52,661 bases of DNA from a bacterium (GTDB lineage Bacteria > UBA8248), in the NCBI GenBank assembly GCA_030922375.1, contig JAVEPB010000019.1:1-52661 (forward strand). Reading direction: 5' to 3'. Positions 26,114-30,342 of the stretch are shown one piece after another; positions within the stretch are counted from its first letter, which is position 1, and the number at the start of each line of letters is the position of its first letter. The position numbers and the translations under genes were made by a program. The notes beneath the pieces are model-generated. The model ran no database searches and was not told the DNA's origin. It saw only the letters and a list, made by a program, of their open reading frames with translations.

Positions 26114-27445
26114 CTAAAGCAAGGACTCCGCGATGCGGCGAACCAGGCCGACATTATGGCGATGGCCCGACCGGAAGGCGGAGACCTTCCCCTCGATGGG
26201 GCGCCCCAACAGGTACAAATCTCCAATGATGTCGAGAATTTTGTGGCGGACAAACTCATCCGGGAAGCGGAGTTCAGTATTCACGACGCGTTCGCTGTCG
26301 ATCAGAATGACATTGCCCCAGCGTCCCCCCTCGCCCAGGCCCATCTCCTCGAGGGCTTCGAGTTCCCAAATAAAACTGAATGTCCTCGCGGGCGCAATCT
26401 CATTCTGGTAGCCCTCGATACTATCGTGACGATACTCGAATATCTGTTTTCCGACGGGCTCGGGAAGATCCATGTCGTATGAAACCGAAAATCCCTCGCC
26501 CGGTTCCACCTTGATATAGCCATTCGGAGAGCCGGGCTCTCCGGTCTCGAACACCTGGTCAATAACGATGGGAGATAATTCCTCGGCTTGCTCTTCCAGC
26601 CCGGCGTCCTCGATCAGGCGGCAAAATTCCTTAGAGGAGCCGTCCAGAATGGGAACCTCCTCGCTGAGCTTGACCAATAGGTTGGAGACGCCGTAGGCGT
26701 AAAGCGCGCTCATGAGATGCTCGATGGTCCGGGCTATCACATCCTTGGCCCGGAGGTTGGTGGCGTGGTTGGTGTTATCGACGAATTCCGCCTGTGCGGC
26801 GATAGTGTCCGGCGTGCTCAGGTTACCGAAACGAATGCCGCTGTCTGGCGGGAGGGGTTCGAGAATGAGACCCGTCTTGAGTCCCGAGTGAAGACCGCGG
26901 CCATATAGAACGACGCTCCGCCGGATCGTCCTTTGCTGGCTTTCGAAGGAACCGTTCCGGCCAGCCGCCGCTACGCCCCTGGCGGCTTCGCCGTGCACGC
27001 CCGGTGAATCGGTGGCGCGGCTTTTTCTCGCACCCGGCGGTTTCCCTTTTCCGGGGGACGGGGCGGACTTGTTCCTCCGGCGGGTACGAACCGCCGAATC
27101 GACGACCCGAAGAATCGATTCCATCGACAGCGGCTTTTCGATGAAGTCGAAGGCCCCGAGTTTCGTGGCCGCCACCGCTGTTTCGATGGTGCCGTGGCCC
27201 GACATGACGACAACTTCGGCCTTTGGGTGCATTTCCTTGACCGCCTGGAGCGTTTTAATGCCGTCGATTCCGGGCATCCACACATCGACCAGAACGACGT
27301 CCGGCCTTTCGTTGCGCACGAGTTCCAGGCCGATCTTGCCCGAGTTGGCTGTGAGGGTCCGGTACCCTTCGTCCTCGAGAATCCCCTCAAGAGTCGAAAG
27401 AATGCTCTCTTCGTCGTCAATGATGAGGATTTGTGCTTTATCCAA
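26114..27445 (-). CDS. lpxC: Response-regulator receiver domain fused to LpxC deacetylase
   Basis: 443 residues in one uninterrupted frame, starting at TTG 27443-27445 inside the ntrY stop (TTGGATAA), with AAAGGA upstream. Residues 1-120 are an NtrX/NtrC-like receiver: acidic pocket D10/D11, phosphoacceptor D54 (VLVDVWMPGIDG), S82 in VVMSGHGTIE and K104 in FIEKPLS. A basic Pro/Gly/Ala-rich linker (about 121-168) follows. Residues about 170-443 are LpxC, which deacetylates UDP-3-O-acyl-GlcNAc, the committed step of lipid A synthesis. Zinc ligands by family alignment are H243 (in TIEHLMSALYAYGV), H401 and D405 (RHKILDIIGD). E242, D409 and H428 (SGHRHNVGLV) are also present. I found no internal start with a ribosome site before the LpxC part. 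The usual AAA+ and HTH output is absent. Confidence 0.93.
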   Translation of the reverse strand: MDKAQILIIDDEESILSTLEGILEDEGYRTLTANSGKIGLELVRNERPDVVLVDVWMPGIDGIKTLQAVKEMHPKAEVVVMSGHGTIETAVAATKLGAFDFIEKPLSMESILRVVDSAVRTRRRNKSAPSPGKGKPPGARKSRATDSPGVHGEAARGVAAAGRNGSFESQQRTIRRSVVLYGRGLHSGLKTGLILEPLPPDSGIRFGNLSTPDTIAAQAEFVDNTNHATNLRAKDVIARTIEHLMSALYAYGVSNLLVKLSEEVPILDGSSKEFCRLIEDAGLEEQAEELSPIVIDQVFETGEPGSPNGYIKVEPGEGFSVSYDMDLPEPVGKQIFEYRHDSIEGYQNEIAPARTFSFIWELEALEEMGLGEGGRWGNVILIDSERVVNTELRFPDEFVRHKILDIIGDLYLLGRPIEGKVSAFRSGHRHNVGLVRRIAESLL

Positions 27446-29702
27446 TCGCGACCGTCCTTTCGATGCCGGCCGGCTCCGATGACGATGGTGCCAGCGGCAG
27501 GGTGAGGCGGAACACGGAACCACGCGGTTGATTATCGCGCACGGTGATCTCGCCGTTGTGATCGTCGATGATCCTGTGGCATATGGCGAGCCCAAGCCCG
27601 GAACCCTGATACTTGGTCGAGAAATAGGGGGAGAATATGAGCTCCTTGTTCTCGACGGGGATTCCGCCGCCCTCGTCGGACACCTCAACGATCAGCTGAC
27701 TTCGCTCGGCATCCGCATGAGCGTGCAATGTCACACGGCCTCCGGACTCCATGGAATCGAATGCGTTTTCGAGCAAATTGATCAAAACGCGCTGGATTTG
27801 ATCGGGGTCGGCCATGACCGAGGGCAGTGCGCCTTCTATCTCTTTTTCGAGCGTGATGTCCCCGCGCCGTTCCCGGTAGAGATTCACCACCTGATCGATC
27901 AAGGAACCGATGCCGCAGGGAGAAAGCCGGGGCTCCGGCAGCCGGGCGAAGCGGCTGAATTCGTTTACCAGGTCCATCAGCCCTTCCACCTGAGAGATGA
28001 TGGTGTCGGTGGCGATTTCGAACACTTCGGGGAAATCCACCGCATCTTGTTCGAATTTTCGGCGCATTCTCTCCGTTGAGAGCTGGATGGGAGTGAGGGG
28101 ATTTTTGATTTCGTGAGCGATCCCCTGCGCCACTTCGCGCCAGGCGGCGACTTTCTGGGCGCGGATGAGGACAGACAAATCGTCGAAAACGACGACCGCC
28201 CCCAGGTGCCTGCCGTCGGAGCCCTCGAGCAGGGTCAGACTCGACCGGAGGGTCCGCAGCTGGCCGTCGATCAGGACCTCGAGCTGCTCGGAAACGCTCT
28301 TTTTACCCCTCTTGCGCATCGCCCGCAGCAAATGCCTTATGGGTTCGAGGTGCTGCACCTTGAACACCTCGTTGAAGGGACGCCCGAGGGCCCAGTCCGA
28401 CTGAATCCGGAGGAGGTCGGCGGCGGCGTTGTTGAGAATGGTGATCCTCCCCCTCCGGTTGATGGAAACCACGCCGGTTCCGATATTCTCGAGCATGGCC
28501 ACCATATAGCGCCGGCGGCGGTCGATTTCGGCGCTCGAACGCTGGAGGTCCAGGGTCGCGGCCTCGATTTCCTGTTTGTTCACTTTAAGCTCGTGGGTCA
28601 TGTTGTTGAAGGCCTTCACGAGTATTCCCACCTCGCCGTCGGCCTGGACATCGACCCGGTAGTCGAGGTCGCCCTCGGAGACGGCGCGGGTGCCTTCAGC
28701 CAGCTCCTCGATCGCCACCGTGATGCCGCGCGCGATGTAGAAACCGAACCAGATGGCGGCAAAGAGGATCAACAGCGTCATGAGAAGAAAAGTAATGATG
28801 TAGCTGGCCTTGATCGGATTTTTCGAGAGCTCGAGCTCTTTGTAGTCTTCGTAGGCGTTGATGATTCCCTCGACCTTCGCGACCAGCCGCTCGGGAATAT
28901 AGCGGGACACGACGACGAAACCCGTTATCTTGACGCCGGACTTGATGGGCGAGACCCCATGAATCGCGTCGCCTCCCCCCCAGCTTTCAACGCTCGTCCT
29001 GGCCTCGCCCTGAAGCACCTTTTCGAGGTAGTCCTGCGACGCGGAAAAACTCGCCACCGAGGGCAGCTTATCGCGGAGAACATGGGCCAGGCTTTTTCGA
29101 TCGGCGCTGAAAAGCTGAATCGCATCGGCCTCGAGGTCCCCTCGAACGCTCTTGATATAGGCCTTGAGCACCTCTTTCTTCTCGAGGCTCCCCCACCCGT
29201 TCGCCTCGATGCTCTTGGCGAGCCGACTCGAGGCGGCCAGGGCGCTTTGCTCCGATTCCCGGTAGTAGGTCTGGGCGACCTGGAAAGAGCCTTTCAGCGC
29301 TCCCTCGACCTTCATGTTGAAAAGCGTATTGAAACTCTGGTTGATGAGACCGCTCGCGATCACGAATAAAAGAACCGAGGGGACGAGGGTGAAACCCACG
29401 AAGGCGGCGATGAGTTTCGCCTGAAGGCGGAGACCGCCGGCGCCTTGCCGGGAGGAGTGGTACAGGCGTACGAGGTTCCGGACGACGAGCAGGGCCAGAA
29501 CCATCAAGAGAATAATGTTCAGGTTGACGAGAGCGAATACGGCGACATTGTTCAGCAGCGGCGTTCCCGGTTCGAGCTCCTTGAAATAAATCCACGCCGT
29601 GAGCAAGAGAATGGTGAAGCCGATCAGGCCGAGAGTCGCCTTCCGGATGTTCTTGCGCCGGCGAAGGGCGATCTCATCGTAATCCATGCTCGTGGGATAC
29701 AT
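27438..29702 (-). CDS. NtrY-type membrane sensor histidine kinase
   Basis: 754 residues from ATG 29702, which has GAGGAA about ten bases upstream (an in-frame codon eight residues earlier is less likely). Three hydrophobic segments near the N-terminus are followed by a periplasmic sensor region (about 130-300), another TM (IITFLLMTLLILFAAIWFGF) and HAMP (GTRAVSEGDLDYRVDV). A PAS domain (MVAMLENIGTGVVSINRRGR) precedes the H-box AHEIKNPLTPIQLSTERM. The ATPase part has NLLENAFDSME, DEGGGIP and GSGLGLAICHRI. The layout is that of NtrY. Its stop overlaps the start of REC-LpxC, its likely cognate receiver. The signal sensed is unknown. Confidence 0.92.
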   Translation of the reverse strand: MYPTSMDYDEIALRRRKNIRKATLGLIGFTILLLTAWIYFKELEPGTPLLNNVAVFALVNLNIILLMVLALLVVRNLVRLYHSSRQGAGGLRLQAKLIAAFVGFTLVPSVLLFVIASGLINQSFNTLFNMKVEGALKGSFQVAQTYYRESEQSALAASSRLAKSIEANGWGSLEKKEVLKAYIKSVRGDLEADAIQLFSADRKSLAHVLRDKLPSVASFSASQDYLEKVLQGEARTSVESWGGGDAIHGVSPIKSGVKITGFVVVSRYIPERLVAKVEGIINAYEDYKELELSKNPIKASYIITFLLMTLLILFAAIWFGFYIARGITVAIEELAEGTRAVSEGDLDYRVDVQADGEVGILVKAFNNMTHELKVNKQEIEAATLDLQRSSAEIDRRRRYMVAMLENIGTGVVSINRRGRITILNNAAADLLRIQSDWALGRPFNEVFKVQHLEPIRHLLRAMRKRGKKSVSEQLEVLIDGQLRTLRSSLTLLEGSDGRHLGAVVVFDDLSVLIRAQKVAAWREVAQGIAHEIKNPLTPIQLSTERMRRKFEQDAVDFPEVFEIATDTIISQVEGLMDLVNEFSRFARLPEPRLSPCGIGSLIDQVVNLYRERRGDITLEKEIEGALPSVMADPDQIQRVLINLLENAFDSMESGGRVTLHAHADAERSQLIVEVSDEGGGIPVENKELIFSPYFSTKYQGSGLGLAICHRIIDDHNGEITVRDNQPRGSVFRLTLPLAPSSSEPAGIERTVAIG

Positions 29703-29706
29703 GGCG

Positions 29707-30342
29707 CTACATTCCTCTCGAACCAAAGGGCGGCGAAGCGGCCCACGGCGTTTTGCTGTTCAGGAACGAAAGCATGTAGTTAAACGGAAATGCGAATTTC
29801 ACCGAGTTCAGGTTAGCGCGGACTTGTAGATAATACCGCGCTTTGGGGTCGAGCGCCCGGGTCTTCGCGATGGCATGTCCGTTGATCTCCGCCATCCAGT
29901 CCATCATTTTCTTCCGGTCCTTCGTGACTTTCTCGATTTTCTCGTCCAATCCGTTCTGGGAGATAAAAGTGTATGCCTTTTTCAAGGCGTCGAATTTCAC
30001 CTGATGAGTCAAGGTTTGCCGGTCCATCTCGATGTCGAAGAGAACGGCCCGGTCTCGCATCAGCGCGAGTTCGTAGGTGAATCGAGTCGTCACCCCGCTG
30101 TGGAGGGCCTCGAACACCTTGGGCGAGAAGGCGCTCCCCAATGACACGAAAGCGAGTAGGCGGCCCTTTTTTTCCACGACCGCAACATCCTTGATTTCGG
30201 GGGCGCTTTTGCCGTCGGGGGCGGCAAGGGCGGAGGATGCGGCGAGCATCATCCCCGAAACCAGGAGAGCTCCGGCAAAAAACCCCCTGGCTGCCGCCAC
30301 GGACCGCCATAATCCACAGAAATTCATCACCTTACCGTTCAT
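29707..30342 (-). CDS. DUF4390 secreted protein, NtrY-associated
   Basis: 211 residues with an N-terminal export signal (about 21-41, FFAGALLVSGMMLAASSALA). The mature part begins IKDVAVVEKKGRLLAFVSLG and ends NSVKFAFPFNYMLSFL. The pattern, a short beta-rich domain next to an NtrY-like kinase, matches DUF4390, whose members are commonly found at that position in deltaproteobacterial genomes. Its stop lies four bases upstream of the ntrY start. The protein may be a periplasmic input partner for the kinase, but this is inferred from position only. The ATG has GGGAGGGGGT upstream. Confidence 0.8.
   Translation of the reverse strand: MNGKVMNFCGLWRSVAAARGFFAGALLVSGMMLAASSALAAPDGKSAPEIKDVAVVEKKGRLLAFVSLGSAFSPKVFEALHSGVTTRFTYELALMRDRAVLFDIEMDRQTLTHQVKFDALKKAYTFISQNGLDEKIEKVTKDRKKMMDWMAEINGHAIAKTRALDPKARYYLQVRANLNSVKFAFPFNYMLSFLNSKTPWAASPPFGSRGM

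Follow-up and report, generated by a model that had tools for sequence, protein, structure and literature searches.

The window analysed here, the 52,661-nucleotide contig JAVEPB010000019.1 (assembly GCA_030922375.1) from a bacterium of the GTDB lineage UBA8248, encodes a response regulator receiver domain joined in frame to the deacetylase LpxC, and it raises the question of what a receiver does on such an enzyme. Among LPS-bearing bacteria, what is known of LpxC control comes largely from the proteobacterial models. A first-pass annotation of the window had proposed direct control by phosphorylation of the enzyme itself. From the comparisons described below it appears likely that LpxC output is under the direct control of D54 phosphorylation by NtrY, in a protein derived from one NtrX-LpxC fusion that subsequently lost its AAA+ and HTH domains.

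The features of the locus, for which the annotation had named no strand, are listed in Table 1. The N-terminal part of the protein matches Response_reg (PF00072) with an E-value of 9e-30 (103 bits against a cut-off of 30), and the C-terminal part matches both LpxC PF03331 (E-value 4e-79, 266 bits against a cut-off of 27) and the LpxC model TIGR00325 (230.8 bits, above the curated cut-off of 187.25). A complete NtrX-like receiver and a catalytically intact LpxC had been annotated, and both descriptions were confirmed residue by residue. The phosphorylation site is complete (D10, D11, D54, S82 and K104), and the zinc ligands and catalytic residues of LpxC are all present (E242, H243, H401, D405, D409 and H428). 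No second LpxC was found in the source genome; a separate complete lpxC is what the annotation had named as speaking against its proposal. As the genome's sole copy, the fused deacetylase is predicted to be active, and probably is. Pfam identifies no AAA+ or HTH domain in the window protein. The NtrX equivalog model scores 122.5 bits against a cut-off of 600, the REC-AAA+-HTH architecture is not present, and without an AAA+ domain the protein does not qualify as a sigma-54 activator (bEBP). With the LpxC-FabZ model the score of 195 falls short of the cut-off of 465, and the C-terminal FabZ domain is absent.

Table 1. Features of the REC-LpxC locus in the window, and loci of paired LpxC genes in related genomes
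Feature	Position	Strand	Remarks
REC-LpxC fusion gene	26114..27445	(-)	443 aa; TTG start at 27445; no internal stops
Receiver domain, residues 6-115	27101..27430	(-)	PF00072; partial match to NF051870; relatives in PDB
Codon of phospho-acceptor D54	27284..27286	(-)	Asp in 78/78 receivers and in 11 further fusions
Linker, about residues 123-168	26942..27079	(-)	Probable site of the lost AAA+/HTH half
LpxC domain, residues 171-439	26129..26935	(-)	Catalytic residues intact; no C-terminal tail beyond the domain
Shine-Dalgarno-like AAAGGA	27455..27460	(-)	9 nt ahead of the TTG start; identified by eye
NtrY-type sensor histidine kinase	27438..29726	(-)	NtrY_N, HAMP, PAS, HisKA, HATPase (Pfam)
DUF4390 protein gene	29707..30342	(-)	Upstream of ntrY; same order in L048-L050, L083, L103
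Unfused/fused LpxC locus pairs in five acidobacterial genomes			L268/L267, L270/L269, L272/L271, L274/L273, L276/L275

The fusion itself is genuine, as had been annotated. The same in-frame fusion occurs in genomes of the same genus, of the same family and of other phyla, and orthologous fusions in so many genomes rule out a frameshift or misassembly as its source. The source MAG has an estimated contamination of 7.5%. Despite this estimate the contig belongs to its lineage, as three related MAGs (L048-L050) show the same gene order as the window.

A restriction of the fusion to the window's genus proved wrong, since it is found across several phyla. Within the window's phylum, LpxC is present in 17 of the 18 genomes examined, a few of the genes being broken by contig ends. 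Three genera have a receiver and LpxC with no other domain between them. Three more have a frame of about 720-730 amino acids that encodes a receiver, an AAA+ domain and an HTH domain followed by LpxC. We used the LpxC part of the window protein to scan GTDB species genomes and took the best 80 loci, which come from Nitrospinota (Nitrospina), Tectomicrobia (Entotheonella), Nitrospirota, Deltaproteobacteria (Desulfomonile, Syntrophaceae), Acidobacteriota (Thermoanaerobaculia, Holophagae) and Aminicenantes. A receiver lies in the LpxC frame in 79 of these best 80 loci, and the remaining one begins at a contig end. The architecture is either REC-LpxC or REC-AAA+-(HTH)-LpxC, the latter being a whole NtrX joined to LpxC.

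A REC-LpxC profile run on 386 genomes sampled over the domain separates fused proteins (404 bits or more) from unfused ones (280 bits or less), with none between. Beyond the window's family, 22 genomes of this sample, representing 16 families, score as fused, the architecture in most of them being deduced from the match and the frame length. Long LpxC frames in five genomes (G118, G148, G221, G243 and G374) are LpxC-FabZ enzymes with out-of-gene N-terminal extensions and not receiver fusions. None of the 32 fusion genomes sampled encodes an LpxC besides the fused one. In five acidobacterial genomes (G508, G480, G516, G468 and G432) an unfused LpxC is encoded alongside REC-LpxC; the fused form has thus coexisted with canonical LpxC, and may have replaced it elsewhere. 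The first-pass annotation contained neither this canonical second LpxC in relatives nor the putative ancestral NtrX-LpxC fusion across phyla, of which the window protein would be a trimmed form.

In a tree of 130 LpxC sequences, from which one truncated row (U_L186) was left out, a single branch with an SH-aLRT support of 100 separates the fused enzymes from all others. The REC-AAA+ part of 24 fusions likewise groups into a single clade that excludes 22 standalone NtrC-family regulators taken mostly from the same genomes. That both parts of the protein form single clades points to a single fusion event. The 79 fusions from the best 80 loci comprise 25 with AAA+ and HTH domains, 17 with AAA+ but without a detectable HTH and 37 with neither, and AAA+ presence changes six times inside the fused clade of the LpxC tree. 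The tree alone gives these changes no direction, and we infer loss because NtrX is itself REC-AAA+-HTH. The simplest history is probably one in-frame fusion followed by repeated AAA+/HTH loss: a complete NtrX would have been fused once to LpxC, and its DNA-binding/ATPase half, having become dispensable, would have been dropped in several lineages, including the window's genus, to leave REC-linker-LpxC. Within the window's family the tree needs three AAA+ changes, and several losses there are likely; a single AAA-less clade in this family is not rejected by the AU test (p 0.19 and 0.087).

The receiver and the enzyme show extensive conservation. The phospho-acceptor is an aspartate in all 78 receivers of the fusions, the acidic partner D11 is kept in 78 of 78 and Lys104 in 77 of 78, and the 11 further acidobacterial fusions have an identical phosphorylation site. 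The catalytic residues of LpxC are invariant in every aligned fusion. Since the receiver and LpxC are always kept while AAA+ and HTH are lost, what selection appears to keep is the phospho-switch together with the enzyme, and not the transcription machinery.

The fusion gene directly follows a gene for an NtrY-type kinase, whose stop codon overlaps the REC-LpxC start by 8 nt. This overlap, together with the AAAGGA at 9-nt spacing, suggests translational coupling. The true ntrY start may be an internal ATG. Farther upstream are the DUF4390 gene and mutS (named from its sequence), and purM, purN, lolA, rseP, ispG and proS lie downstream of the fusion gene. DUF4390 recurs next to ntrY whether lpxC is fused or not, and it may belong to the sensing apparatus.

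In the window's phylum the gene for NtrY adjoins the fusion, as it does in several MAGs of delta-proteobacteria, Nitrospinota and Nitrospirota. Among 28 fusion genomes, 20 have one NtrY_N kinase, one has two and seven have none. Where ntrY is distant, as in Nitrospina, no NtrX gene lies beside the kinase, and no fusion genome contains an NtrX above the NCBI equivalog cut-off, although this model is strict and passes only one of 14 controls. Given this gene linkage and the missing NtrX partners, NtrY is most probably the cognate kinase that signals to REC-LpxC. In some lineages other kinases may take its place, as ntrY is not adjacent in Nitrospina and others and seven of the 28 genomes are without an NtrY_N match.

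The surroundings of the fusion gene vary among the more distant lineages. In Nitrospina it comes after greA and a Methyltransf_4 gene, and no kinase is encoded close by (L056:7435-8609); the gene for NtrY stands by itself on this contig, at a distance of about 225 kb (L206). A hybrid kinase with three receiver domains (L084:5351-7993) is encoded about 0.7 kb upstream of one Desulfomonile REC-AAA-LpxC, and open reading frames of similar size precede the fusion at three other loci (L090, L096 and L105). In a Syntrophaceae-related clade the fusion is immediately preceded by a radical-SAM-family ORF (L051:8381-9406, Pfam) or, at four loci (L054, L058, L061 and L070), by ORFs of about 345 amino acids, similar in size to it.

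We also considered how the two domains are connected. The linker had been annotated as basic, and in the window protein it does carry a net charge of +7. A conserved basic linker was nevertheless rejected: the median charge over 36 AAA-less fusions is 0, linker length among the fusions ranges from 27 to 62 amino acids, and neither property is conserved. An AlphaFold model of the window protein (pLDDT 86, pTM 0.69) contains two well-folded domains separated by a low-confidence or disordered segment (residues 132-166). The LpxC part of the model matches solved LpxC structures, and the closest solved relatives of the receiver are those of Brucella NtrX (PDB 4d6x and 5m7n). No PDB chain spanning a receiver and LpxC was found. 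Contacts between receiver and LpxC, which the annotation had suggested looking for in such a model, receive no confident placement at a pTM of 0.69. The lack of conservation in linker length and charge argues against a single rigid allosteric geometry. Control by dimerisation of the receiver, by tethering or by access for a protease would suit so variable and flexible a linker no less well than rigid allostery would.

Direct control by phosphorylation nonetheless appears to be the best reading. It is considerably better supported than it was from the sequence alone, considering the conserved phosphorylation site, the dispensable DNA-binding half, the link to NtrY and an LpxC that is usually the only one in the genome; the support is partial, with no confidently modelled interface. 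In the mechanism we propose, the membrane kinase NtrY would sense an envelope or redox-type signal and phosphorylate D54. Phosphorylation would then alter the receiver, either at its dimerisation face or in its contact with LpxC, and the altered receiver would set the turnover of UDP-3-O-acyl-GlcNAc by the attached deacetylase, most likely through its activity or assembly state. In Rhodobacter, LPS rises when NtrYX is lost; if that pattern holds here, signalling would reduce the output of LpxC.

Phosphorylation could instead control the stability of the enzyme, with the receiver acting as a regulated degron or adaptor platform in place of the FtsH degron found at the C-terminus of the E. coli enzyme. 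The level of E. coli LpxC is set by proteolysis through this degron (PMC12444477), and the fusions stop right after the LpxC domain, ending 0-9 residues beyond it without any comparable tail. The zinc ribbon of LapB has no match in four genomes of the window's family, using a model that also matches Gram-positive controls. In one Aminicenantes MAG (L110:6510-9494) the fusion gene overlaps the end of a gene for a Clp-type (ClpA/ClpB-like) ATPase, which may hint at controlled proteolysis, but this is a single case. We regard control of stability as a possibility deserving attention, though not as the probable one.

The receiver might also serve as a scaffold that docks LpxC on membrane-bound NtrY or another kinase, and so recruits it to the inner membrane, while leaving catalysis unchanged. 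The overlap of the fusion gene with the gene for a membrane kinase is consistent with docking, as is the flexible linker of the AlphaFold model, which would suit a tether, and the Neisseria LapB homologue Ght has been suggested to place LpxC at the membrane (PMC12444477). However, docking needs less than the strict conservation of D54 and K104 that is observed, and ntrY is not always near the fusion gene. On balance we consider this arrangement unlikely.

The fused protein could be mainly a transcription factor, an NtrX to which LpxC was joined so that the two are co-expressed, or so that LpxC feeds the regulator by sensing a metabolite. Consistent with this, 42 of the 79 relatives keep AAA+, 41 of these 42 with Walker A, and in both Rhodobacter and Caulobacter NtrYX acts as a repressor of lpxC (PMC7240162, PMC12444477). 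However, the GAFTGA loop is missing from all 42 of these relatives, and most of the standalone NtrC-family regulators have it. To take this as proof that there is no role in transcription would be too strong, because regulators without GAFTGA can still act at sigma-70 promoters (PMC10274813). The window protein and 37 AAA-less relatives have neither an AAA+ nor an HTH domain, which excludes a classical DNA-binding regulator for the window protein, and for the fusions we judge this reading very improbable. Finally, the receiver might be a neutral relic of a chance NtrX-LpxC fusion, and in favour of this the AAA+ half shows that regulator parts can decay freely. Yet the phosphorylation site is kept in 78 of 78 receivers over several phyla while AAA+ and HTH decay, and we find a neutral relic scarcely credible.

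Returning to direct control by phosphorylation, we lean towards an ancient rewiring in several phyla, in which an NtrX was fused to LpxC, shed its DNA-binding and ATPase parts, and came to set LpxC output post-translationally through D54. The annotation's statement that no experimental description is known agrees with our search, in which no receiver-LpxC protein was found in the open-access literature, subscription papers and domain-architecture databases lying outside that search; a 2025 review mentions neither an LpxC fusion nor a receiver. The response regulators in the literature that we found act on lpxC through transcription only. As far as we found, LpxC is undescribed as a response-regulator output. 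Enzyme outputs as such are familiar among response regulators, and the architecture will appear in automatically compiled databases. If true, the proposed control would provide a direct route from signal to enzyme in outer-membrane synthesis. It might also offer a new handle on the enzyme, LpxC being a drug target. The system is exactly testable, with one aspartate, one kinase and one assay. It would also be a clear case of a transcription factor turned into an enzyme-linked switch by fusion and then domain loss.

The window LpxC has its fold and catalytic residues in common with the canonical enzymes of E. coli, Aquifex and Pseudomonas. These have no N-terminal receiver, whereas the window protein has one and is without a C-terminal degron tail. 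Known post-translational control of LpxC is by FtsH-LapB proteolysis or by MurA binding, not by phosphorylation (PMC12444477). The bifunctional LpxC-FabZ, which is present among the unfused outgroup, is also a natural LpxC fusion, but there LpxC is joined to a dehydratase from the pathway, at its C-terminal end, and in the window protein to a signalling domain. In CheB, REC-GGDEF and REC-HD-GYP proteins, receiver phosphorylation controls a covalently attached enzyme. These enzymes work in signalling, whereas the output of REC-LpxC would be a committed and usually essential biosynthetic enzyme.

An unfused arrangement of the same genes is found in an acidobacterial class that also has fusion genomes. 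In this class, that of genome G402, unfused lpxC lies beside DUF4390 and/or ntrY at 33 of 37 loci (L205:1875-6921 and most of L238-L265 and L267-L283), which speaks independently for a link between such regulators and LpxC. The gene order in G402 (L205) is lpxC-DUF4390-ntrY-ntrX, and its NtrX has an intact GAFTGA.

The NtrYX systems of Brucella, Rhodobacter and Caulobacter resemble the window in the Brucella NtrX-related receiver and the NtrY_N kinase. However, known NtrX acts on transcription through its AAA+ and HTH domains, and the window protein has neither, with LpxC as its output. In both Rhodobacter and Caulobacter, NtrYX reduces the level of lpxC transcripts (PMC7240162, PMC12444477). 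In Desulfovibrio vulgaris the single mapped target of the response regulator DVU2934 is lpxC, and in S. fumaroxidans lpxC adjoins an operon orthologous to that of DVU2934 (PMC3333781). DVU2934 is unfused and binds DNA upstream of lpxC, while the window receiver is covalently joined to LpxC itself. By analogy, the fusion would be a post-translational version of the wiring that is seen at the level of transcription in NtrYX and DVU2934.
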